23,745 bases of DNA from a virus: positions 860 to 24,604 of IMG/VR virus record IMGVR_UViG_3300030430_003321; one strand, 5' to 3'. The notes below the pieces were generated by a model. The model was given only the letters and a program-made list of their open reading frames with translations. It searched no databases and had not been told where the DNA came from. Made by a program: the position numbers and the translations under genes. This document shows, piece by piece, positions 6,667 through 22,573 of the stretch (position 1 is its first letter; each line of letters opens with the position of its first letter).

Positions 6667-7950
6667 TTAACTATTTGTTGCTAATATAAAGGCTCTGTCT
6701 ATATCATAAAAAACATCTGTACTAACACTAGGAAAACTATTAATTATCATACTACCTCTTATGTTAGCGTTTATAGAAGAGCCGTAAACTGTTAATATTG
6801 TATTATCTGCTAAAACTTGTGTGTCAGCTAGTGTTATTGGCGATCCGCTTGCGTGTACAGCTGTAACAGTATTAGCACCATTAGCAAAATTAACGCCTGG
6901 ACCAAATATTCTACTACCAACAGAAACACCTCTAATACCATCAACATTTATACTATTACTAGCTTGATCGCCGTTAACCGTAACACTACCACCACCAAAA
7001 TCTGTTGTAGCCAAAGGGCCTGTTGGAACTACACTTAAATCAAAACTAACATTTAAATTTGTTGATAGTCTTATTAACTCTGAACCATAAGCTCTAAACG
7101 TAATATCTTTAGCATCTGCCCAACTGTGAGCGCTAGATAAAGTTACTGTTTTAGTTTGTGTATTTATAGCCGTTATAGTTGGATATGTTAAAACACCTAA
7201 ACTACCACTTGTAGTAACACTACTACTTTCTATATCTACCAAACTCATACCAACAACAAGATTATCTACATCATTTAAAATTAGTGAAGTTGAAGAACTA
7301 CCTGTACCATTAGTTTGTTTTATTAGTTTAGTAAAAAAATCTGTATCTACTGGTTGTAAAGAATCTGCTAAAAAAGCTCTTCTAGGTGTTCTAGAACCTC
7401 CAAAACCAGTTGTATCAAAACTATACTTATAACCAAGAGACAAACCATCACCTGTATCTGCTAAATCTTCTGAAATACTTACAGTACGAGTCGATCTACT
7501 ATTTGAACTACTACTTGTGCTTCCTATAAAAGCACCTATACCTACAAAATTAGCATCTGCTTGATCTGAAGAAGTACTAAATCTAACAGTAACATCTTTT
7601 TCTTGATTTATTGTTTGTTTTAATAACCCTATTGAACCACCTACAATTTGTGTTCCAAAATGATAATTAGGTATTAATAAAAAAGTATAACTATTACCAC
7701 CAGAAGAAGATGGTATTTTAATTGTAAAATTAAAAGTATTACCATCTAAAACAATATTTAAATTATTTTGAGAGTTAAAACCATTTACAAAAGATTTTGT
7801 TTTAAAGTTATAAAATTTTGTTGGAGAAGAATTATCAAATATATGTAAATGACAATAAGAACCAATATCACCTTGTATAAAACACTCTATACTCTGCGCT
7901 GTTGATTCTATTGTTTTGTTTAATATATTAAAACTATTTATGCTTTTCAT
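6667..7950 (-). CDS. Beta-rich virion protein with duplicated module (427 aa)
   Basis: A 427-residue protein rich in Ser, Thr, Asn, Gly and Val, with no signal peptide, membrane segment or enzyme motif. Two related beta modules occur in tandem: residues about 220-291 (LILNDVDNLVVGMSLVD … TITAINTQTKTVTLSSAH … ITFRAYGSEL) and about 331-393 (SINVDGIRGVSVGSRIFG … TVTAVHASGSPITLADTQ … LTVYGSSI). They share the pattern of a short strand, a V(V/S)VG(M/S) turn, a TxTA(I/V) strand, a TL(S/A) strand and a terminal YGS(E/S)(L/I). Such modules are frequent in marine phage tail proteins. The gene starts 11 bases after the giant tail-hub gene and ends 3 bases before the next, so a tail-attached or adhesin-like role fits. 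Specific function unknown. Confidence 0.72.
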   Translation of the reverse strand: MKSINSFNILNKTIESTAQSIECFIQGDIGSYCHLHIFDNSSPTKFYNFKTKSFVNGFNSQNNLNIVLDGNTFNFTIKIPSSSGGNSYTFLLIPNYHFGTQIVGGSIGLLKQTINQEKDVTVRFSTSSDQADANFVGIGAFIGSTSSSSNSRSTRTVSISEDLADTGDGLSLGYKYSFDTTGFGGSRTPRRAFLADSLQPVDTDFFTKLIKQTNGTGSSSTSLILNDVDNLVVGMSLVDIESSSVTTSGSLGVLTYPTITAINTQTKTVTLSSAHSWADAKDITFRAYGSELIRLSTNLNVSFDLSVVPTGPLATTDFGGGSVTVNGDQASNSINVDGIRGVSVGSRIFGPGVNFANGANTVTAVHASGSPITLADTQVLADNTILTVYGSSINANIRGSMIINSFPSVSTDVFYDIDRAFILATNS

Positions 7951-7961
7951 AATATATTTTA

Positions 7962-10900
7962 TTATAACTGTTCATGTTCAAATGCTTCGCCAATACCTAA
8001 ATTAGATTGACTTTCTGTGTCTATAGTACCGTCAGTTTCACTATGCATATGCTGTATATAGGCAAAAGCTTTTTCTTCTTTTTTAACAAATTGATTTACG
8101 TTTGGATTATCTATAACACTATTAGTATCAAAAGGCGTTGATAAAATTCTACCTTCACCTCTTTCTGTTTCTAATCGATTACATGTCCAAGCAGGAACTC
8201 TACTATTATCACCTTTAAAATCTCCAACGTAATTTAATGTATTAAAGTTTTTTATAGACAAAGGTGCATCGTTAAAAATAGCATTAACACTAGCTATCCT
8301 AGTAGTTGAATCATTAGTACCGTAAAAATGACAAGCACCAACATTTTCATTGTGATGAAACGCTTTACCATCTCTAAACGTTATGTATTCGTTATTTACA
8401 ATAACACCAGATTCTTGTATAAATCCTTTAAAACTAGACCAACCTTTTACGTTTTCTTTATAAGTAACAGTTATTGATTGATCTGCATTTTTATATACAT
8501 TTTTAGAAGTATTAAAATCATCTTCTACATAATCAAAGTCATAACCAGAATCAAACGTTAAGTTATAATCGTTTTTAGTTTTATCGTAACTACCAACTAT
8601 TCTATAATAATCACTTTTTAATTTATCTCTAAACCAGTCTCTCATACCAGCGTCAGATATAGGTGTTAAACCATCCATTGATAATCTTAATACTGCACCT
8701 CTCTGTTTATCTGTAAAATATGCTCTATAAGAAGACGATGCAAAACTTTCAGGATTTTTAGATATGCCATACTCACCAACAAAAGGCCTTGACTGACCTA
8801 AAACTTTATTAGAAGCCGTTAGCTGAGTGTTGCCATCTGCATTAAATATAAGATCTTTATCAGCAAATATTTGAACTATTTTATCTTCACATAAAGCTAT
8901 TAAGTCACTATTTCTAGCAAATAATTTTTGTATACTACCATATGTAGTATCTAATTCTTTAGTTATATTATCTGCTTGAATAAATTGATTTAAATCGTTT
9001 AAACTTGTATTTTTATTGTATATACCAGAAAATATTAAACCACTAGTTCTTGTATCTTGTTTATATTTTTCTTGTAAAGTTGTAGATACTCTTGCACCAT
9101 TTTTTATAAAAGTTTGATTAAAATCATCTCTTATTCTATTTGATTCTACACCGTTACCAAAGCTAAAAGCGTTAAAATAAGGTAAACCAACTTCTTCTGG
9201 TATGATTTTTACTCTAAATTTAATAATACTATTATAAGAATTTGCAGATGAAGTAGGGTTGGTTGTACCTAATTGTACAACATCTAGTATTTTATATTTA
9301 ATATAACCGTCTTCTTGGTCGTCATAAAACTCCAAAAATTTATTAGTAAAAAATTGCTTTTGATGACTAAGATTTGTTTGAACTCCAGGTACATTGTTAG
9401 GTTGAAAATTAAAACTTTGAGCACCTCCAAGAGCACTTATACCACCGGCTAATTCAACTATATCTCCATCCCAAGATTTTACTCTACAATCAATAGGTTC
9501 GCCAGCAGCGTTGTTGCTTGAATCAACATAAGTATTAGCTATATCCATAGCAGTTCCAGATACTTTAACTTTAGTACCTACTTTAGCCGCTAAATATCCT
9601 TTAGTATTATTTGTTAATTCTACGCCTGATCCATAAGTCGATGTTGTTGTAGAATTAACATCTAGTTTTATAGGATAAGTAGGTGAAGCTTCATAATATA
9701 AATCTAAATCAACTTTTTCTTTTGGTTCTGTTTCAAATATAGCAGGATTATCTTTTATTTCGTTTACACCGTCAGAAAAATCTTGTTCAAAAAATTCTAT
9801 AAAACCAAAATCATCATTAGTACCATCAAAATCAAAATCAAAAGTTTCAGGGTTTATAGAGCATTGTGTTCTAGGATCTTTATCTAATTCTACTATATAA
9901 CAAATTCTTCTGTTATCAGCTCTACCAAACCTACGAACTGCTTCTTCTAATTGGTTAAATCTATTGTTTAGCTCTGTTATATCACCACCCGGCGTGTAGG
10001 CATAAGTATGCCATCTATGATAATGATATGCTACTGAGTTTTCGTTTTGAAACCACTGGCCATTTTGAGCAGCGTTCATATCAACTGTAACAGATAAATT
10101 CCAAGGTGTATGATTATACACTCTTACTTTTGAAGTATTTCTTATTATGAAAGAAGTTCCGCTAGTATCATTGGAAAATCTAAAAACACTACCTGGGGTT
10201 TCTAGTTTATTTATAAATTCTTTATTACCAGGTCTAAAATTACCAAGATCAGGATGACCTACAGGATCCCATTGTGTTTCTGCTTTTATTCTCCAATTAA
10301 CATCACCTCTAGTATTAGGCTCTTGAGGAAACGGTAATACTCTACCAAAACCATCGCTACTAATATTTATTTGTTTACCACAATTTATTATTGATTGAAG
10401 ATCCATGACTCCACCAGGTATTTCTGGAGGGGTTAACTGATTACCTCCAACCTGTCCACCAGGAGAATATGTAGCAGCTACAAAAAAACCGTTACCTATA
10501 GAATAACCAGGTGTTGCTACAAATAAAGGCGCGTCTGGTTCCATTAAATCTACACCTACGCCACCAAAAGATAAATGCATAAAAAATTTACCAGTATCAG
10601 TTCCATAAACATCTCTATAGTTTTGTAAACCAAAAGCATTAATATGATCTGTTTGTTTTTTCCAAACAAGCGGCCAAGGATCAGCAGATCCAACGGAAAC
10701 TCTATTTTTATGACCTGTAACAGTTGTAACTATACCTTGCATACCATTCATTGGTGATCCTAAAGTTGATCTTCTAAATAATTGTGAAACTTTAACGTTT
10801 AATGTAGTAGTTGTTCCATTATCAAAAATATCTTTAAAAACAAATTCACCGCTAGAGTTTGTATAACCAGAGTTATTACTATTTGTGTTTCCATAGGTAG

Positions 10901-13900
10901 GATTAAAGCTCATGCTACGCAAGTTTCCACTAACAGAAGCATCAAATTGTTGTAAATCTACTATTTCACTAGCATAATCACCTCCAAAATCTGAAATAAT
11001 ACTAGTAAATGATCTATATGTATTTCTAGCATTGCTTGGTGTTTCTAAAGGTTGATGCGCAACGTAATGCAATTCATCTATAAACCAATCACTACCATCT
11101 GTACCTTGGTTATTAGTTTCATGATTAAAAAGATCTCTAAAATGTTCAGGTTTAACACTTCGACTTTGCAGAGCGTTTGTTACAGCACCAGTATTACTAG
11201 TTGTGTTTTGACCATAACTATGTGTTCCGCTATATACCCCATCTGAATCTGCTGTATCAAAAAGATTATCGTCTCTAAGACTAAAAGTTTTTGCTCTAGC
11301 AGTAAGAACAGTACCTATTTCAACACCTATCAAAGGTTCTAAGTATTGAGCTGTTATTATATTAGATCTTATTTTCACAAAAAATCTACCTTGAAACTCT
11401 TGCCATTGTCTATTGTCATTTACAAAAAATACTACTTGCAAGTCTTCGTTCAAAATACCAGGCGAAGTTTCTACCCAACTATCAGATTCTTGTATAGGTT
11501 TGTCAAGAGAAACTGTATACACGTCTGCTGTTATTTCTACGTTAACAAATGTATAAACTTCAGAGTTTATAACAGTATTACCCGCAGGATCTATTTTTTT
11601 AAACTTTATACTTAAATCTTCACCTTTATTAAATAGCTGTTGTATACCAACAACTCTTTCGCTTATTAATTGTTCTTTTTTAAAAACTAACTTACGTTGT
11701 CCAGCTGCTGGTTGAAAACTCTCATCTGGAAATAAGTTTTCTATAGACGCATCACCATCAGCATTACCTATAGATCTAAGCTTATCTCTTATAAATTCAG
11801 GCGCTTCGTTTTCTATAGCTATTATTTTAAATTTATTTTCAAGTTGAACTTGAGAATCAGAATCTACAGGTTTTTTAAGTATTATAAAATCTTCTTCTTT
11901 TATTTTATTTCTATCAGCAGAAGGAAAAGAAATCCATAAACTACCATCTTCTTTTGATCTGTAAACTCTATCTAAAACTAAATTATAGTATTCAGAAGAA
12001 GTTTCTTTTATATATAGTTTAAAATAATAAGGGTCAAAACTAAAATCACCACCAAGACTATAAGCGTCAGGAACATTTACATGACAAGGTATATTAGGTA
12101 TATCTAATACTTTTAATCTATGACTTTTAGAAGCAGTACCTTCAAAAGCAACTATAGCGTTTTCATCTGTAGACAAGTTAAAAGGAATCGTAACAGAACC
12201 TCTTTCACCAGAACTAAAAACAGGTGTTTCTCTACCTTGATAATCTAATAAACTCATACCAACTTGATACGTTCTTTGTGATTTTACTGTATTTAAACCA
12301 CCTTCGTCAAAAATTTTATCTATATTACCAAATTTTCTTTCTTCAAAATCTAATTTTAAATCATTTTCGTAATCTTGAACGTTTAGGTTTTGCGTATAAT
12401 TTCCATATATTATTCTACCTGCTGTAAAATCTTGTGCTTTAGCTTTTTTAGGAACATTATCATATATTCGTAAAGTCTGAAGCTCTGGTAAGGCAGCGTA
12501 TATTAAATCTTTAGTTAACTCATAATATCCAGAATTTGTATTATCTCTAGTAGACTGGCTTCCGTCTATAAATGTAAAAGTATTAGATCCATTATTGTCA
12601 ACGCTATGCCAAGAAGCTACATCACTACCATCTGATTTTTTAGGTTTTATAGTGTCTATTGTATATATTATTGGCGAATCATCTGACTTATACAATAAAT
12701 CTATTTCAATAACATCTCTAGGAATACCTTGGTGTACAAAATCTTTTAGTATTATTTTTTTAATATTATTTTCCATACCAGTATTGTATGGTTCTCTAGT
12801 TGGATGAATATTAAATCTACCTGGTAAAAAACCTGCTTGAGTAAAAGGAGCAAAAGAAGAATATTGATTATCTGAATATTTGTATCTGTAAGAAAATCTA
12901 GGAAAAGTTTTTTCAAAAAGTACTTTTGAAAGATCTTCTTTAATAATATTAAAAGAATAAGCTTGATCTAAAATTGAAGTTGATACATTTATAATATCAC
13001 AAGTAATAAGAGCTTTTAAAGGTAAGTTTCTATCTATTGATGAATCAGGAGGGTTAAAAAGTGTTGGGGCACTTGGATCAACGGCTAAACTTGTTATTTC
13101 AAGCCTAGCTTGAACATTTGAAGGAAGACTACCTGTAGCGCCGACTTGACTTAAAAGTAAAATATCACCAACTTCTAGTAAAGGCGCATATGCGTCGTAA
13201 TACTCATCACCTATGCCTTGTCCAGAAGAAGCTACAAAGTTTGTTGCTCCAAAACCAGAGTAATTAGCTTCAAATTTTCCTGTAACAGGGTTTATGCCTA
13301 AAAGATATAAGTTATTTGCAGTACCATCATTTTCAGGATCATATACATCATTAGCTCCAAGAACTTTAAACTCTTCTAAACCAATTTCAAATTGTATTGA
13401 GCTTCCAGCAGTTTTATTTACAAAACTAGCTGTAGGTGTATTATATAAAACTTGTCTTTCTTCACCAGGCACTAACTCTAATGTAATTGGGTTTAAAGGC
13501 CTTGGTTTTATAACTGTTATATCATGTTTAGTTACAGTACCTTTGTCTTCTCCATTAACATATAAATTACTAGTATTTGATAAAGTAATATTAGTATTGT
13601 TTAAAAATTGTGTTATATTTACTACTTTTGGTTCTGTAACGCCATCAGTAAAATATAAAAAATCATCTACAATACTAATGCCTGTTATATAATTTTCTAC
13701 TGTAAATTCTAAAACTTTATTTTGATTGTCACTTAATACAATACCAGTTTCTAAATCACCATTATTATTTTTAAAACATCTCAATATAGCGCTCTGTGTA
13801 TTATCATCTTTAACTAAAAACCAATAAGCAACATCGTTTTTTTCATCTGCTATAGAGCCTATACACTGATAACTATTATTCCAGTCTTGAGCAAGTCCTG

Positions 13901-14069
13901 TAGTTAATTTTTTATTACCCATTATAGGTTGAACGCTACCAACAGAATCTTCATCAGAAGTAGAAACTTGTATATTTAAAGCACCTCTATATTCACCATT
14001 AGGTAATATTTTTTCTTCAAGGTCTAAGTTCATACGACCTTGTGTAAAAGTAGTATTAATCTCTGGCAT
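7962..14069 (-). CDS. Giant tail-hub / stabilisation protein ('muzzle'-like, 2035 aa)
   Basis: A 2035-residue virion protein. Its N-terminus (TFTQGRMNLDLEEKILPNGE, then ALNIQVSTSDEDSVGSVQPI) is the recognisable opening of tail stabilisation proteins of marine and Bacteroidota podoviruses, the group containing the crAss-like muzzle protein. The C-terminal quarter holds a matching block: YGSIQKLFARNSDLIALCED, GEYGISKNPESFASSSYRAY (near residue 1765), FTDKQRGAVLRLSMDG (near 1785) and KGWSSFKGFIQESG…ITFRDGKAFHHN (about 1874-1905). Such proteins fold mainly as beta-propellers and Ig-like modules and close the tail end, releasing DNA on binding. The middle 1200 residues are beta-rich with many Asn, Ser, Thr and Gly and no catalytic motif I recognise; a His/Tyr-rich patch HYHRWHTYAYTPGGD lies near residue 1350. 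The exact fold and role are inferred. Confidence 0.8.
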   Translation of the reverse strand: MPEINTTFTQGRMNLDLEEKILPNGEYRGALNIQVSTSDEDSVGSVQPIMGNKKLTTGLAQDWNNSYQCIGSIADEKNDVAYWFLVKDDNTQSAILRCFKNNNGDLETGIVLSDNQNKVLEFTVENYITGISIVDDFLYFTDGVTEPKVVNITQFLNNTNITLSNTSNLYVNGEDKGTVTKHDITVIKPRPLNPITLELVPGEERQVLYNTPTASFVNKTAGSSIQFEIGLEEFKVLGANDVYDPENDGTANNLYLLGINPVTGKFEANYSGFGATNFVASSGQGIGDEYYDAYAPLLEVGDILLLSQVGATGSLPSNVQARLEITSLAVDPSAPTLFNPPDSSIDRNLPLKALITCDIINVSTSILDQAYSFNIIKEDLSKVLFEKTFPRFSYRYKYSDNQYSSFAPFTQAGFLPGRFNIHPTREPYNTGMENNIKKIILKDFVHQGIPRDVIEIDLLYKSDDSPIIYTIDTIKPKKSDGSDVASWHSVDNNGSNTFTFIDGSQSTRDNTNSGYYELTKDLIYAALPELQTLRIYDNVPKKAKAQDFTAGRIIYGNYTQNLNVQDYENDLKLDFEERKFGNIDKIFDEGGLNTVKSQRTYQVGMSLLDYQGRETPVFSSGERGSVTIPFNLSTDENAIVAFEGTASKSHRLKVLDIPNIPCHVNVPDAYSLGGDFSFDPYYFKLYIKETSSEYYNLVLDRVYRSKEDGSLWISFPSADRNKIKEEDFIILKKPVDSDSQVQLENKFKIIAIENEAPEFIRDKLRSIGNADGDASIENLFPDESFQPAAGQRKLVFKKEQLISERVVGIQQLFNKGEDLSIKFKKIDPAGNTVINSEVYTFVNVEITADVYTVSLDKPIQESDSWVETSPGILNEDLQVVFFVNDNRQWQEFQGRFFVKIRSNIITAQYLEPLIGVEIGTVLTARAKTFSLRDDNLFDTADSDGVYSGTHSYGQNTTSNTGAVTNALQSRSVKPEHFRDLFNHETNNQGTDGSDWFIDELHYVAHQPLETPSNARNTYRSFTSIISDFGGDYASEIVDLQQFDASVSGNLRSMSFNPTYGNTNSNNSGYTNSSGEFVFKDIFDNGTTTTLNVKVSQLFRRSTLGSPMNGMQGIVTTVTGHKNRVSVGSADPWPLVWKKQTDHINAFGLQNYRDVYGTDTGKFFMHLSFGGVGVDLMEPDAPLFVATPGYSIGNGFFVAATYSPGGQVGGNQLTPPEIPGGVMDLQSIINCGKQINISSDGFGRVLPFPQEPNTRGDVNWRIKAETQWDPVGHPDLGNFRPGNKEFINKLETPGSVFRFSNDTSGTSFIIRNTSKVRVYNHTPWNLSVTVDMNAAQNGQWFQNENSVAYHYHRWHTYAYTPGGDITELNNRFNQLEEAVRRFGRADNRRICYIVELDKDPRTQCSINPETFDFDFDGTNDDFGFIEFFEQDFSDGVNEIKDNPAIFETEPKEKVDLDLYYEASPTYPIKLDVNSTTTSTYGSGVELTNNTKGYLAAKVGTKVKVSGTAMDIANTYVDSSNNAAGEPIDCRVKSWDGDIVELAGGISALGGAQSFNFQPNNVPGVQTNLSHQKQFFTNKFLEFYDDQEDGYIKYKILDVVQLGTTNPTSSANSYNSIIKFRVKIIPEEVGLPYFNAFSFGNGVESNRIRDDFNQTFIKNGARVSTTLQEKYKQDTRTSGLIFSGIYNKNTSLNDLNQFIQADNITKELDTTYGSIQKLFARNSDLIALCEDKIVQIFADKDLIFNADGNTQLTASNKVLGQSRPFVGEYGISKNPESFASSSYRAYFTDKQRGAVLRLSMDGLTPISDAGMRDWFRDKLKSDYYRIVGSYDKTKNDYNLTFDSGYDFDYVEDDFNTSKNVYKNADQSITVTYKENVKGWSSFKGFIQESGVIVNNEYITFRDGKAFHHNENVGACHFYGTNDSTTRIASVNAIFNDAPLSIKNFNTLNYVGDFKGDNSRVPAWTCNRLETERGEGRILSTPFDTNSVIDNPNVNQFVKKEEKAFAYIQHMHSETDGTIDTESQSNLGIGEAFEHEQL

Positions 14070-14073
14070 TTAA

Positions 14074-15540
14074 TTAATGTTTAATTTGTTTTGATTTGCC
14101 TCTAAGTATTTGAGTTATTTCTTCTAATTTAATGTTAGAAAGTCTTAATTTAGCTTGTCTTACAGCTGCAAACTTTTCTCTTTTATATCTACGAACAGCA
14201 TACTCTGGTACGTTTGAACTTGTAGATAATATAGCGTATATAATACTTTTATACATAGCTTCTTCGGCAAGTTTATGAACTTGCATTTCTTCTTCAGTAC
14301 CTAAACTATCACTTATATAATCTATTATTACAGTTTTTCCAGAAATATTAGACGAAAAATGTATTAATCCTTTTAAACTATCTATATAATAAGAACCGTT
14401 ATCTTGTGCGTGCTGCGGATCTATACCATATCTTCTACCAACATTAGCTTCAAATATATGATCGTCATAATCATAATCATGCTGTTTATTTTCATTAGGT
14501 TTATTAGATTTATAATTACCCCAAGTAGTAGATGTTTCCTCATCACCAACTCTAACTATAGATATATTATCTATAACAACATTTAAATCGTCAGAAGTAC
14601 CAGGAGTTGTTAACGTTGACGTGTTGTCAGTTGTACACTCAAGATAAACAGAACTAGGTACATAACCAGTTGAATTATTAAGAATATTATAGTTTCCGTT
14701 CAATCCATCTGCAGTAATTGTTTCTGTATAAGTACCATTAGCACTTCTTGTAGTTGCAAGTGTTGGAATACCATTTTCATCTACTATAACAAAATTATAA
14801 CTTCCAGTAGCATAATTACTTATAGTATACGTTATAGTGTATTGTTCTCCATGTATTATGTCAACCGAATCTTGTCTAAAAGCTTGAGATTGTGGCAAAG
14901 AATATCCTTTTATACTATTGTCTTCATAATACCAACCAGACAAATTAAGAGTAGCTTGTGAAAGCGCAAGACCACTTCCTACAGGAAATGGTGCTGCTTG
15001 AGCTTGACCATCAAATCCTACGTTTAAATTCCAAGCGCCTGGCCCACCTTGAAAATTTCCGTTTTTTATTAAGTTTCCAGAAGGTAATAAACTTCTAAAG
15101 TTATTACTATAATCAAAGTCTTTACCAAATAAAAAATCACCGTTATCGTCTGTTTGATATTTTTGAGGATTTGAAGTTTTACCTAAAGTTGGATATAATG
15201 GTTTTTTTATACCAGCATTATCTACACATGATATTTTAGTATAATTAACATAATCTTGAGGTAATGGCACTGTTAAGCTTGATTGCACTTCTGTTTCTAT
15301 TGACTTGTGAGATTTAAACGTATCAAAACTTAATTCTGCTAAAGCTCTTTGCGCGTGAAAATTAACTTGCATACGATCAGCTTTGCTAATTAATTTTCCT
15401 TCACCTACGTATCCAATTATAAATTGATTTATTATATCTACTAAAGACACAAATTGATAACTACCAAACTGTATAGGATTATTAGTACTAAGATCTTTAT
15501 TGTTATAATATTCTTGTTGAGTTTGATTTATTAACGCCAT
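14074..15540 (-). CDS. Head-tail connector / ring protein with inserted carbohydrate-binding-like domain (488 aa)
   Basis: The two ends form a connector-type protein. Residues about 27-100 (SYQFVSLVDIINQFIIGYVG, helical AQRALAELSFDTF, then LTVPLPQDYVNYTKI) and about 372-488 (YGIDPQHAQDNGSYYID, GLIHFSSNISGKTVIIDYIS, EEEMQVHKLAEEAMYKSI, ending LRGKSKQIKH) match, from memory, a conserved structural protein of marine and crAss-like phages. Between them, residues about 155-333 read like a jelly-roll carbohydrate-binding module: it opens NLIKNGNFQGGPGAWNL, contains GEQYTITYTISNY and closes VVIDNISIVRVG. In relatives I remember, the two halves are joined by a short linker, so this is a domain insertion. 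The protein probably sits in the neck or tail, with the insertion exposed. It is followed after 4 bases by the giant tail-hub gene. Confidence 0.82.
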   Translation of the reverse strand: MALINQTQQEYYNNKDLSTNNPIQFGSYQFVSLVDIINQFIIGYVGEGKLISKADRMQVNFHAQRALAELSFDTFKSHKSIETEVQSSLTVPLPQDYVNYTKISCVDNAGIKKPLYPTLGKTSNPQKYQTDDNGDFLFGKDFDYSNNFRSLLPSGNLIKNGNFQGGPGAWNLNVGFDGQAQAAPFPVGSGLALSQATLNLSGWYYEDNSIKGYSLPQSQAFRQDSVDIIHGEQYTITYTISNYATGSYNFVIVDENGIPTLATTRSANGTYTETITADGLNGNYNILNNSTGYVPSSVYLECTTDNTSTLTTPGTSDDLNVVIDNISIVRVGDEETSTTWGNYKSNKPNENKQHDYDYDDHIFEANVGRRYGIDPQHAQDNGSYYIDSLKGLIHFSSNISGKTVIIDYISDSLGTEEEMQVHKLAEEAMYKSIIYAILSTSSNVPEYAVRRYKREKFAAVRQAKLRLSNIKLEEITQILRGKSKQIKH

Positions 15541-15544
15541 TTAA

Positions 15545-16261
15545 TTATTGTTTTTCTTGATTAATATCTTTAGTTTCTTCTAATTGACCAGCTTGAAATA
15601 AACTAGGATCTTTTAATGATATTCCTACTAGTTTCAATATATTATTAACTAAGTTTGTTTGTTCTGATTCGTGCAACTCAAAATCGGTACTATTAGTAGC
15701 ATTGTAAGCAAATGCTCCACCAACATTATAACCATTCCATTGTACTGTGACTGGAGTTTTTATATAGTAAGCGCTGTACGTACCATTAAAAACGGTTGCT
15801 GGTAAGAAATTAATTGTATTTTCGTTTATATAATATATTGGTCTATTTTCTGTTGGTCTTGTTAAGGGCGTATTTCTTATAATAGCAAGATCACACATAT
15901 CTATTTTAGTAACAGCTCTATACTTTCTAATTGGAGTAGTTAGCTGATCTATCTCTAAATAAACATCAGATAACATATACATGTCTGTAGTATCTGTTAA
16001 ACTATCGCCATCAGATAAATCTTCTATCTGTTTTTTAAAAGGATTTAATTTTGTTTGGATAATTTCAATAGGATCATTGTATTTTTTTCTATTACCAGGC
16101 CTTCTTTTAAACTGATGTAAATCGTAAAAATATTGTTCAAAAATATCCATTTGAGCTTTATTAGCAAATAAATTAAACTCTGTAGGTGTTAAATAACCTC
16201 TTTGTTCTTTATTAACTAAAGCTTGAACTCTTTGATATACTGTATCTATACTTACCGCCAT
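15545..16261 (-). CDS. Virion connector / ring protein (238 aa)
   Basis: A 238-residue protein recognised from its N-terminus (VQALVNKEQRGYLTPTEFNL, residues 12-31, then AQMDIFEQYFYDLHQF), a pattern widespread in uncultured marine phages and crAss-like phages where it belongs to the head-tail connector or neck-ring set. The N-terminal third is helical, the middle (about 110-190) beta-rich with IYYINENTINFLP and TYSAYYIKTP, and the C-terminus helical and Glu/Lys/Gln-rich. This helix-plus-beta arrangement is compatible with a gp11-like or ring adaptor beneath the portal. The start overlaps the stop of the 50-residue gene and a second connector gene starts 4 bases after its end. Which ring it builds cannot be read from sequence alone. 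Confidence 0.78.
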   Translation of the reverse strand: MAVSIDTVYQRVQALVNKEQRGYLTPTEFNLFANKAQMDIFEQYFYDLHQFKRRPGNRKKYNDPIEIIQTKLNPFKKQIEDLSDGDSLTDTTDMYMLSDVYLEIDQLTTPIRKYRAVTKIDMCDLAIIRNTPLTRPTENRPIYYINENTINFLPATVFNGTYSAYYIKTPVTVQWNGYNVGGAFAYNATNSTDFELHESEQTNLVNNILKLVGISLKDPSLFQAGQLEETKDINQEKQ

Positions 16262-17349: not shown

Positions 17350-18876
17350 TTACTTCATTAACATAAAGTTGTTAGCACCTTGAGTGATTAAACATCTTTC
17401 AGTTAAGAAATGTAGTTGCATTGCATCTAACGCAGAAGTAGCAGCACCAACAGAACCAGTAACCCAAGACTTCATTCTTCGGTCATCAGTTTGTGAAGCT
17501 CTAAATCTTACGTGTAAGAAAGGACGTCTCATACTAGCTCCTACAGTTTGGTCATAAACTGAAGAAGTACCAGCAGGAATCATAACCCCTCTAATAGCGT
17601 TAGCTCCAGCGATAGCGTTAATACCACCTCTAGTTGCTAAATCATTTAAGTATCTAAAGTCAGACTTGTAGAAGTCATAAGAACCTCTTCTAAAACCAGA
17701 GAAACCTAAATTTAGCGCCATATCTTCAGAGTTGTTAAACACTCCATAAGAAGTACCACCAGCCCCGTAAGAGTTCATTGAAGCTAACATATCGTCAATA
17801 GCTAAGCTAGTAGCTCTGTTAACAAACATCATGTATTCTTCAATAGCACCTTGCTTATCAAACTCAGCAAGTATTGCATCGAACTCAGCTAAATCAGTAG
17901 CAGCATTAACACCAGTTACACCAGTAGTAATATTACCTCTTGATTCTATAGCGGCGAATAAACCTTCAGTACCTACGTTTCCAGCACCAGCTGTTGATCC
18001 AAGAATTAAACTATTACCATCTAACGTAGAAGCAGCAGCGTTAAGTTCACTTTCTAACATTGCCATTTCAATATAGTCAGTAAATCTAGCTCTTGTATCA
18101 GCTTCGGCTTTTAAATACCATAAATAACCACTTTGCCCGTTTTCAGCAGAAACTTCTACCCAACCAATTCTAGACGCGTCAGATCCTGATACTTCGTAGT
18201 AATCTTTCATTATAATTGGCTTGTTAGTAAAAGATTTGAACTGAGGCTCATTAGCTCCTCTTGAATCACTAGCCGCTGGAGAAGCAGCAGTAGTGTTATA
18301 GTTATCACCTTTACCAAACTCAGAACCATAAACTAATACAGTACAAGCTAAAGCAGCTGAAGAAGAACCAGCAGTACCTGATAAGTTTGCTGCATCATAA
18401 GGAGCAACAGTTAAAAGGTCTAAGTCAGAACCATCCTGAGCTGTAACCATACATTTAGCAACACCAGAAGCAGTAGCAACGATAATAGTATCGTTAACTC
18501 TAATTCCATGAAGTGCACTTGTAGCACCAGATCCAGATATACCGTTAGTAGTATCTTCGTTGTTACCATCAATGTCAGACTGTATTTGAATAGTTGTACT
18601 TGATTTTATCTCAGCTTTGTAAGATAAATGTAAACGACCTTGTTCAGACCAAACTACTTGATCAGAAGTCATCGCTTCTTCTGCACCAACTTGAGCAAGG
18701 AAACCAGAAATTGTACGAGGTCCAAAAACCTCAGCTTCTTTTTCCATCAAGTCTGGCAGGTATTGTTGTGCCCAGTCGTTTGCACCACTGGTAAAGTCTA
18801 GATAGTTTGTTGCTAGCGTTTGCTGTCTTTGAGCAGGTACGCTATTTAACAAACCACCAGGATTTGAAATTGCCAT
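17350..18876 (-). CDS. Major capsid protein
   Basis: A 508-residue major capsid protein, presumably with the HK97 fold, forming the icosahedral shell. The C-terminal half holds segments I recognise from marine phage capsid proteins: DFYKSDFRYLNDLATRGG (about 401-418), VMIPAGTSSVYDQ (about 431-443), RRPFLHVRFRASQTDDR (about 450-466) and the terminal LHFLTERCLITQGANNF (about 488-504). Residues about 92-185 form a beta-rich, Gly/Ser/Thr-rich segment that may be an inserted domain. The gene lies 20 bases after the scaffold-like gene and is followed by a strong terminator. Codon choice is visibly less A/T-driven than in its neighbours (AAC, GAC and TAC are frequent), as expected for the most highly expressed virion gene. 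The leader is A/T-only with no ribosome binding site. Confidence 0.9.
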   Translation of the reverse strand: MAISNPGGLLNSVPAQRQQTLATNYLDFTSGANDWAQQYLPDLMEKEAEVFGPRTISGFLAQVGAEEAMTSDQVVWSEQGRLHLSYKAEIKSSTTIQIQSDIDGNNEDTTNGISGSGATSALHGIRVNDTIIVATASGVAKCMVTAQDGSDLDLLTVAPYDAANLSGTAGSSSAALACTVLVYGSEFGKGDNYNTTAASPAASDSRGANEPQFKSFTNKPIIMKDYYEVSGSDASRIGWVEVSAENGQSGYLWYLKAEADTRARFTDYIEMAMLESELNAAASTLDGNSLILGSTAGAGNVGTEGLFAAIESRGNITTGVTGVNAATDLAEFDAILAEFDKQGAIEEYMMFVNRATSLAIDDMLASMNSYGAGGTSYGVFNNSEDMALNLGFSGFRRGSYDFYKSDFRYLNDLATRGGINAIAGANAIRGVMIPAGTSSVYDQTVGASMRRPFLHVRFRASQTDDRRMKSWVTGSVGAATSALDAMQLHFLTERCLITQGANNFMLMK

Positions 18877-20146: not shown

Positions 20147-22573
20147 TTATCTTGGTCCAAACATAGACATATCACCAACGTTTGCCCCACCTAGTATATC
20201 ATTACCTGATGACTCAAATTTTTTAGCTGGTAAATCATTTTTTCTTTGTTCTATAAGTTGTGACTGCTGAGAAGCTTGTATTCTTGTTCTTTCGTCTTTA
20301 CGATCTTCTTTTTCTTTTTCTTTTTGTCTAGTGCTTTGTACTTCCATATTTTTTAACCTCATATTAAACTCAAACTCTAAACTCATTAGTTGTTGTTTTG
20401 CTTGCATTTCATATTGAAGTTTTTGTGCTTCAAGCTGAGCTTTTAGTTGCTCTATTTGAGCTTCTGATTGTGTTAAGGCTTGTTGTTTTTGTATTTCCAT
20501 TTGAGCAGCAGCTTGTTGCTGTTGAGCGTTTGCTTGAGCTTGTGCTTGTATATTTTGCTGTTTCATAGCTTGATCCATCTCCATTTTTCTTTTTCTTCTT
20601 ATTTTTAAAACTTCATTTGCAAGCTTAACATTGTTTATTTCTCTAACATCAATAGCGTCTTCTAAATCTATAGTTTGTTGCTGTAGTGCCATTTGAATAT
20701 TGTTTTCAAGCATAGCTTTTTCTTCGTCGTCAGGCATTAATTCTATAAATATACCAAAATCATATAAATGTAAACTAGACATCTCTTCTAAAGTAGCAAC
20801 ATTATGTACACCTATGCTTTGTATAAAAGCTTCTTTTGTTGGTGAATATTCTATAATATCAGATATTCTAAGTGATAATTGTTCTGCAACTTCTGCTGTT
20901 AAAAACAAACCAGAGTCTAATATATGTCTTGTGGCTGTATTACTATTTGCTGCCGCTATTTTTTGTATACCAACTAAAGCTCTTTCGTCTGGCATACTAC
21001 CATCTCTAGCTTCGTTTAATCCGGTTACATCACGTATCATTTGTAAATAGTAATTGTAATTACCTATAAGAGCTTGTATTTTATTACCACCACTACCACT
21101 AGTTATTTCTTGTATTGGTACTTTACCAGGATTCATATCACCATCTTGCGTAAACGATCTACCAATAACACTACCTGTTTGGAAGAACATATTTAAAGCT
21201 TCTTGCGGATTATAGTTTGTACCGTTACCTAAATCTATTTCAGCTAAACCATCAGCATCTAAATAAACGCCATCAGGTATCATACGTGACATTACTTGTT
21301 GTAATTTTAAGTGTGTAAGCTGTATCATGTCAGCAAAACCAGTTATACGTTTTACTAGAGAGTCTATATTTCCTTTATACATACGAGGGGCTACTATACT
21401 ATAGTTCATTTTAACTTTAGTATAATTGCTTTTTGGTCTCATCATGTTTTTAGCTATTTCCCATTTAAGTAGTTTATTAGTACCAAGAACCATAGCTCCT
21501 TCTTGCAATACTTCTATTACTCTGTCTAATCTTGAAAAATTACCTTCTGAGTCTGGAGGCGGGTTAAATGAATCATCTTTTTCTATTGCTTTTTCAGCCC
21601 CTGTAGCAGTTTCTTTTATTTTATAAACTTCGTTCATATAAGTTTTATAATTAAAATATAAAACTTGAACTTTATTACTGTCAAACTCATCATAACTACT
21701 AGCGTTTTTATATGAATTATTAGTATAAAGTGATCGTGATTGCATTATTTCTTCTAAATCACTTTGTTCTAAAAATGGAAATTGTTTTGCTAATTCATTT
21801 ATAGGTATTGTTTTTACTTCACCAACATAATATATATCATCAAAATAAGGTGACTCTGTATAAGAGTAAACTAAATCAGCAGGATCAACATATTCTACAG
21901 TAGCGCCTTCTGAAGTTGTAAAGTTTGTTTTAACAGCACCTATACCTAAAACAGTTAAATCTCTATAAAATCTATTTTTTACTAAATCATATCTATTACC
22001 ATTTAATAACACGTTTATAGCTTGTTCTTCTGCTATCTCTACGGCTTGTTTATAACTTAGTTGCATGTGAAGCTCTAACTCTTCTTTTGTTTCAGGTAAT
22101 GTATCTGGATCGTTTTGATAAAGATTAATATTAAATTTTTGCTGAACAAAATCGTTTATTTCTTTTGTATTCATGTCGTCAACTATAGACTGCATGTATT
22201 CGGTTCTTTTTGCAATACCATATGGATCTTGCGAATATGCTTTTATATCATAAGATCTATCTGCCATACCGTTAACAACTATATCAACAAATTTAGGTAT
22301 AATAGGCACTGGTGTCCAGTCTAAATTTAAATAAGATAAATCACCATTTATAGATAATTCATCTTTATATTTTTGTATTGATTGATTACCTTCAGCATAT
22401 AATCTTAATCTATGAAAATCGTTATAATGTTTATGATACCTGTTTATACCCTGATCTTTATTAAACCACTCATGCTCTATAGCTTTAGCAACTTTTAAAC
22501 CATAGTCATAACTCAACTTTTCAGCATCACTTACAACTTGACTAGGAAAATAATTATTAGTATATTCTGCCAT
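20147..22573 (-). CDS. Portal protein
   Basis: An 808-residue portal protein, forming the dodecameric ring at one capsid vertex through which DNA enters and leaves. Recognisable portal features are the EYVDPADLVYSYTESP segment near residues 227-242 (wing/clip region of podovirus portals) and the long helical block GLNEARDGSMPDERAL followed by AAANSNTATRHIL at about 518-552, which resembles portals of marine and crAss-like podoviruses. Residues about 664-780 are rich in Gln, Ala and Lys and predict a long helix or coiled coil, comparable to the helical barrel of larger portals such as that of P22. The length is well above the roughly 530 residues of T7-type portals. It sits between terminase and the scaffold-like gene, as expected. 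The start has an A/T-only leader and no ribosome binding site. Identification is firm by position and motif; the barrel role of the tail is inferred. Confidence 0.92.
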   Translation of the reverse strand: MAEYTNNYFPSQVVSDAEKLSYDYGLKVAKAIEHEWFNKDQGINRYHKHYNDFHRLRLYAEGNQSIQKYKDELSINGDLSYLNLDWTPVPIIPKFVDIVVNGMADRSYDIKAYSQDPYGIAKRTEYMQSIVDDMNTKEINDFVQQKFNINLYQNDPDTLPETKEELELHMQLSYKQAVEIAEEQAINVLLNGNRYDLVKNRFYRDLTVLGIGAVKTNFTTSEGATVEYVDPADLVYSYTESPYFDDIYYVGEVKTIPINELAKQFPFLEQSDLEEIMQSRSLYTNNSYKNASSYDEFDSNKVQVLYFNYKTYMNEVYKIKETATGAEKAIEKDDSFNPPPDSEGNFSRLDRVIEVLQEGAMVLGTNKLLKWEIAKNMMRPKSNYTKVKMNYSIVAPRMYKGNIDSLVKRITGFADMIQLTHLKLQQVMSRMIPDGVYLDADGLAEIDLGNGTNYNPQEALNMFFQTGSVIGRSFTQDGDMNPGKVPIQEITSGSGGNKIQALIGNYNYYLQMIRDVTGLNEARDGSMPDERALVGIQKIAAANSNTATRHILDSGLFLTAEVAEQLSLRISDIIEYSPTKEAFIQSIGVHNVATLEEMSSLHLYDFGIFIELMPDDEEKAMLENNIQMALQQQTIDLEDAIDVREINNVKLANEVLKIRRKRKMEMDQAMKQQNIQAQAQANAQQQQAAAQMEIQKQQALTQSEAQIEQLKAQLEAQKLQYEMQAKQQLMSLEFEFNMRLKNMEVQSTRQKEKEKEDRKDERTRIQASQQSQLIEQRKNDLPAKKFESSGNDILGGANVGDMSMFGPR

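Follow-up and report, generated by a model that had tools for sequence, protein, structure and literature searches.

A 488-residue virion structural protein of an uncultured phage carries an inserted domain within an otherwise conserved chain, and profile searches and structure prediction support well its description as a jelly roll resembling carbohydrate-binding modules (CBMs). Comparison of homologous proteins identifies the insertion site as an exchange hotspot for unrelated domains. It appears that surface-sticking parts can be mounted on, and exchanged at, the phage neck.

The stretch of DNA analyzed, hereafter the window, covers 23.7 kb of the 24.6 kb in an uncultured virus record. On the minus strand lie, in order, the end of a terminase gene, the portal gene, a gene for a 406-aa product occupying the scaffold position, the gene at the major capsid position, and genes for products of 272, 238, 488, and 2035 aa, past which are smaller genes and two large proteins (Table 1). 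The virion genes matched structural families in PHROGs, and their order is that of Cellulophaga phage phi38:1 (Callevirus, Pervagoviridae); the window phage is an uncultured, Pervagoviridae-related phage of the short-tailed type. The 2035-aa protein, which matched no solved structure by sequence, lies at the position of phi38:1 gp097 and of crAss001 gp44. A separate 427-aa protein, encoded at 6667-7950 (-), had a legume-lectin match below threshold (E 4.8e-5, 23.4 versus 26.3 bits) and VGM-type motifs like those of one insert class described below, and from these sequence features is possibly another surface decoration. The host is probably a member of the Bacteroidota. The hosts of the cultured relatives are marine Flavobacteriia, and a scan of genome contigs for homologues returned three binned contigs, two from Bacteroidota and one from Maricaulis, a weak host hint. 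A weak hint is also given by L188:4947-6263, which encodes a homologue with the CBM-like insert class of the window and whose contig was assigned to the bin of a Sphingobacteriales MAG.

Table 1. Features of the window and insert-bearing adaptor-ring (ring A) genes on related contigs
Feature	Location	Strand	Basis
Portal protein, PHROG 6547	20147..22573	-	PHROGs
phi38:1 gp093 homologue, major capsid protein position, PHROG 13704	17350..18876	-	PHROGs and phi38:1 order
238-aa adaptor-ring homologue (ring A), without insert in the window	15545..16261	-	HHalign to crAss001 gp34
488-aa virion structural protein gene (ring B), PHROG 13977	14074..15540	-	ORF, PHROGs, phi38:1 gp096
N-terminal flank (residues 1-138), helices followed by beta strands	15127..15540	-	Alignment and model
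Patch, residues 1-30, L001-type like the insert	15451..15540	-	19 of 21 informative sites L001 (19:2)
Patch, residues 77-100, L001-type like the insert	15241..15312	-	23 of 24 informative sites L001 (23:1)
Inserted segment, residues ~139-335, missing in 26/102 homologues	14536..15126	-	Alignment, anchor distances
CBM4/9-like jelly roll, residues 155-333	14542..15078	-	Profiles, AlphaFold2, Foldseek
C-terminal flank (residues 336-488 plus stop), beta strands followed by two long helices	14074..14535	-	Alignment and model
2035-aa virion protein, muzzle/nozzle position, PHROG 14478	7962..14069	-	PHROGs; gene order
Ring-A genes, insert at residue ~85	L134:4641-5831, L011:7088-8266, L176:4825-5994, L179:4843-5994		
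Ring-A genes, insert at residue ~165	L129:4990-5994, L133:4987-5994, L172:4986-5993, L167:5054-5998		
Ring-A gene, larger insert	L033:1895-3610		

When the 488-aa protein was aligned with relatives taken from IMG/VR, about 195 of its residues (139-335) proved to be an indel, and on both sides of it the chain runs colinear with insert-free relatives, namely 290-aa environmental homologues and the 283-aa phi38:1 gp096, a homologue annotated as a virion structural protein. The preliminary description had proposed that the flanks form one continuous conserved protein, which the alignment bears out, and had placed the domain at residues 155-333; an insertion is indeed present there, although the real indel is slightly wider. 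The insert contains NLIKNGNFQGGPGAWNL at residue 156 and VVIDNISIVRVG at residues 321-332. Using profile anchors for the two flank halves, we measured the inter-anchor distance in 101 distinct homologues and the window protein. The distances were bimodal: 26 homologues had 40-60 residues, and the other 75 and the window protein had 135-314, dividing the 102 proteins into 26 without and 76 with an insert, and the segment is therefore not integral in all relatives. Deposited phage records agreed: the best 40 of 85 matching the gene, mainly from Flavobacterium and Cellulophaga phages, aligned over 0.83-0.92 kb each, none covering 80% of the query, which leaves no space for the insert.

Searched alone, the 488-aa protein gave nothing above threshold in Pfam, no match in a single-sequence search of the PDB, and just a virion protein family when Pfam and PHROGs were combined. 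A profile built from 16 sequences, the window insert together with 15 inserts homologous to it, in whose alignment W/Y positions are conserved, found the CBM4 structures 1ulo and 1gu3, together with 2bgo and 4d0q, in the PDB (E 1.5e-4 to 9e-3). Pfam CBM_4_9 was matched by two of these 16 inserts (best E 4e-4) and not, above cut-off, by the window insert itself, and we therefore term the domain CBM-like rather than file it as a CBM4/9 member. AlphaFold2, supplied with an alignment that left out two deposited-record rows, modeled the insert core (residues 201-280) at a pLDDT of 81-91, with a mean of 60 for the full protein and poor flanks. Foldseek matched the modeled insert to CBM4, CBM16, CBM6, and a porphyran-binding CBM (E 6e-5 to 1e-3, target-normalized TM up to 0.61), and also to jelly-roll domains from larger proteins. 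Agar- and alginate-binding CBMs were also among the structural matches of the inserts, and a Foldseek search of viral predicted structures returned mostly unnamed phage proteins. Profile, predicted structure, and fold search thus concur with the CBM4/9-like module originally suggested from the ends of the domain.

The inserts of the other homologues are of several kinds. The commonest class (class 0), in 35 homologues, is about 220 aa long; its model (mean pLDDT 77) is a jelly roll of CBM/lectin type with TmCBM61 as the top match. A third class, in 19 homologues, has the motif VGMxVxGPxIPxGT, and searches with these sequences found no recognized fold or relative; a further six homologues have other types. 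HHalign between the three main classes found no relation, and by sequence comparison the one site hosts at least three mutually unrelated insert families. On the flank tree we counted at least 28 changes of insert state, where the lowest possible number is 4 and shuffling gave a mean of 56. Recombination inside the flanks may have inflated this count; strongly supported branches alone require the CBM class to have changed at least seven times and the 220-aa class at least nine. The CBM class of the window was also found elsewhere among phage ORFs, several of which match PHROGs of tail proteins. On one contig (L173:3808-7885), three genes of the 488-aa type stand in tandem, with products of 512 aa, 542 aa, and, for the third, which the contig edge truncates, at least 297 aa; each copy carries a class-0 insert, an amplification of the neck protein gene.

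An exchange involving the window itself was traced among near relatives. The window and contig L003 share 93.5% DNA identity over a 13.7-kb alignment, and near the ring gene most 100-base bins are 94-100% identical, with a few at 86-93%. Their inserts differ, at 20-70% identity in most 10-residue bins, and the window insert instead matches, at about 92%, that of the more distant contigs L001 and L002, whose identity to the window outside the gene is about 79% upstream and near 50% downstream. Informative sites in residues 126-340 favor L001 over L003 by 211 to 12, and those in residues 341-488 favor L003 by 82 to 9. In the N-terminal flank, residues 31-76 and 101-125 go with L003 (38:3 and 14:0), and the two patches listed in Table 1 switch lineage with the insert, so that the exchanged tract extends beyond it; the patches may be surfaces in contact with the insert. 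This distribution of sites indicates that the window's own cassette underwent recombination, and it fits either of the two lineages as the recombinant. Assembly chimerism is an unlikely cause of the mosaic, as L001 and L002 came from different samples and are several percent off the window insert, and switches of class are seen again and again among about 100 contigs.

The 488-aa product had at first been taken for a head-tail connector. That name is backed by position and architecture and not by homology, as searches linked its family to no known connector, adaptor, or ring protein. No match was obtained by HHalign with crAss001 gp34, gp35, gp40, gp43, or a seven-sequence gp43 profile, nor in the PDB, and on the HHalign results assignment as a crAss-type ring was dropped. 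AlphaFold2 predicted a helix-sheet-helix order, at low flank pLDDT, with the insert between two sheet segments, and the gene sits between the adaptor homologue and the very large gene at the muzzle/nozzle position. From the gene order and this layout we infer placement at the neck, where the modeled protein is likely a ring protein.

By HHalign (E 3.8e-6) the neighboring 238-aa product is a homologue of gp34, one of the tail ring proteins of crAss001 (PMC10172136), and its relative on L179 matched Pfam SU10_adaptor below cut-off (E 0.0033). Relatives of this gene have inserts of their own, near residue 85 or residue 165 and, on L033, a larger one (Table 1). Sizes range from about 80 to 330 aa. 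The L134 insert exceeds the Pfam CBM_4_9 cut-off (29.7 versus 25.9 bits), and that of L129 matches the VGM class. Eight of nine phages with a ring-A insert have an insert-free 488-aa homologue. Such an insert was found in 8 of 26 phages whose ring B is insert-free versus 3 of 75 whose ring B bears one (Fisher p 7e-4, kinship ignored); complementarity of inserts between the two neighboring genes lost its support once kinship was considered, and is kept as a lead only.

We think it reasonably probable that the 488-aa product is a neck or tail-ring protein displaying an exchangeable accessory domain, here CBM4/9-like, with weak polysaccharide binding. The domain would project from a loop in the beta region of the protein, and the ring copies would point it outwards. 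Many weak contacts with polysaccharide of the host capsule, exopolysaccharide, or marine gel could then keep the virion close to the cell until the main receptor-binding proteins engage, and a cassette swap would retune this accessory binding. The colinear flanks with and without insert, the CBM fold found by both model and profile, the state changes (at least 28), the window/L003/L001 mosaic, and the same CBM class in tail-type ORFs all support such an adhesin. So do the CBM_4_9 match of the L134 adaptor-ring insert and the commonest alternative insert, itself a CBM/lectin jelly roll though unrelated by HHalign to the window class. Counting against it, jelly rolls can also be purely structural or oligomerizing, the 19 sequences of one insert class have no recognized fold, and the flanks were modeled with poor confidence. 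Lactococcal phages have CBMs in their Dit, tail, and neck proteins; for one tail CBM and one neck CBM, binding to the host was shown (PMC6669499).

Fibre docking is the main rival to this adhesin because beta domains of adaptor rings dock fibres in SU10 and T7. In this rival reading a tail fibre or collar protein would dock on the insert, and insert variety would follow fibre variety. A beta fibre-dock domain of the adaptor ring binds long fibres in SU10, T7, and KP32, and is missing from P22 and Sf6, which have no long fibres (PMC9509320). In crAss001, rings R1 and R2 attach fibre hubs (PMC10172136). The N-terminal patches that swap along with the insert could mean direct contacts. The nearest folds of the inserts are nonetheless glycan-binding modules, and insert-free phages, the cultured phi38:1 included, manage without any docking insert; we consider docking unlikely.

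It is quite improbable that the insert binds diffuse environmental polysaccharide, such as algal exudates or marine gels, rather than the host, with virions thereby staying where hosts feed. Ig-like capsid decorations have been proposed to act similarly with mucus. The porphyran-, agar-, and alginate-binding CBM matches would suit this idea, as would the marine Flavobacteriia infected by cultured relatives, a group that degrades algal polysaccharide (PMC8776804); however, ligand specificity is not readable from structural matches, and host capsules are polysaccharides too. Least credible is a tolerated passenger or structural spacer in a loop that simply accepts insertions, for although 26 homologues are insert-free and the insert families are mutually unrelated, frames are open in 76 of 76 insert-bearing proteins examined, CBM/lectin-type folds keep arriving at the same site, and the adjacent ring gene has its own inserts, one of them CBM_4_9.

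Returning to the neck adhesin, we tentatively suggest a broader form of it, in which neck rings would be a general recombination-fed display comprising two adjacent genes, interchangeable unrelated folds, usually one decoration per neck, and occasional amplification, an adhesion system apart from the tail fibres. Swaps of this kind would be a testable source of rapid change in adsorption that fibre-based host-range prediction would overlook.

The window insert shares its jelly-roll fold and its N- and C-terminal motifs with CBM families 4, 9, and 16 (Pfam CBM_4_9), and the profile match, though weak, is real. Whereas the CBMs of glycoside hydrolases accompany an enzyme, this module lies in a virion protein in which no enzyme domain was found. 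The fibre-dock domain of T7 gp11, SU10 gp11, and KP32 is likewise an extra, variably present beta domain on an adaptor ring; it docks long tail fibres, and neither a CBM fold nor an exchange of unrelated domains is described for it in the part of PMC9509320 covered here. The crAss001 rings R1-R5 and muzzle follow the same order of capsid, ring, ring, and muzzle, and the window adaptor homologue matches gp34, but the crAss001 rings, at 225-238 aa, have no insertions of this kind, and the 488-aa protein matches none by HHalign (PMC10172136).

A sugar-binding module on the neck had been regarded as non-standard, for which the neck passage structures (NPS) of lactococcal phages are a precedent (PMC6669499). 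NPS proteins of the 936 and P335 phages likewise have exchangeable CBM classes at the neck, and one NPS CBM binds host cells (PMC6669499); yet an NPS forms a collar fibre of its own, which is non-essential and has its CBM at the C-terminus, and the CBM-like domain of the window lies within a conserved ring-type protein. Evolved Dits of lactococcal and Lactobacillus siphophages, with a BppA-like CBM inside, share with it a variably present CBM-like insert in a conserved virion ring protein (PMC6669499). The 488-aa protein shows this Dit-type insertion, a CBM-like insert in a conserved virion protein that varies among relatives. An evolved Dit is a distal tail ring of siphophages with Gram-positive hosts, whereas the window has a neck-position, Pervagoviridae-like protein that accepts several unrelated insert families. 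Because its carrier is a PHROG 13977 protein in a phi38:1-like portal-capsid-ring block, the 488-aa protein works like an evolved Dit but is none. By this comparison the principle would be shared with evolved Dits, the virion part and the phage group differ, and the site is an exchange hotspot for unrelated domains. The known display of CBMs on siphophage tails and collars is extended to proteins at the neck position in a marine group of Pervagoviridae-like phages, with direct evidence of recombination at the hotspot between near relatives.
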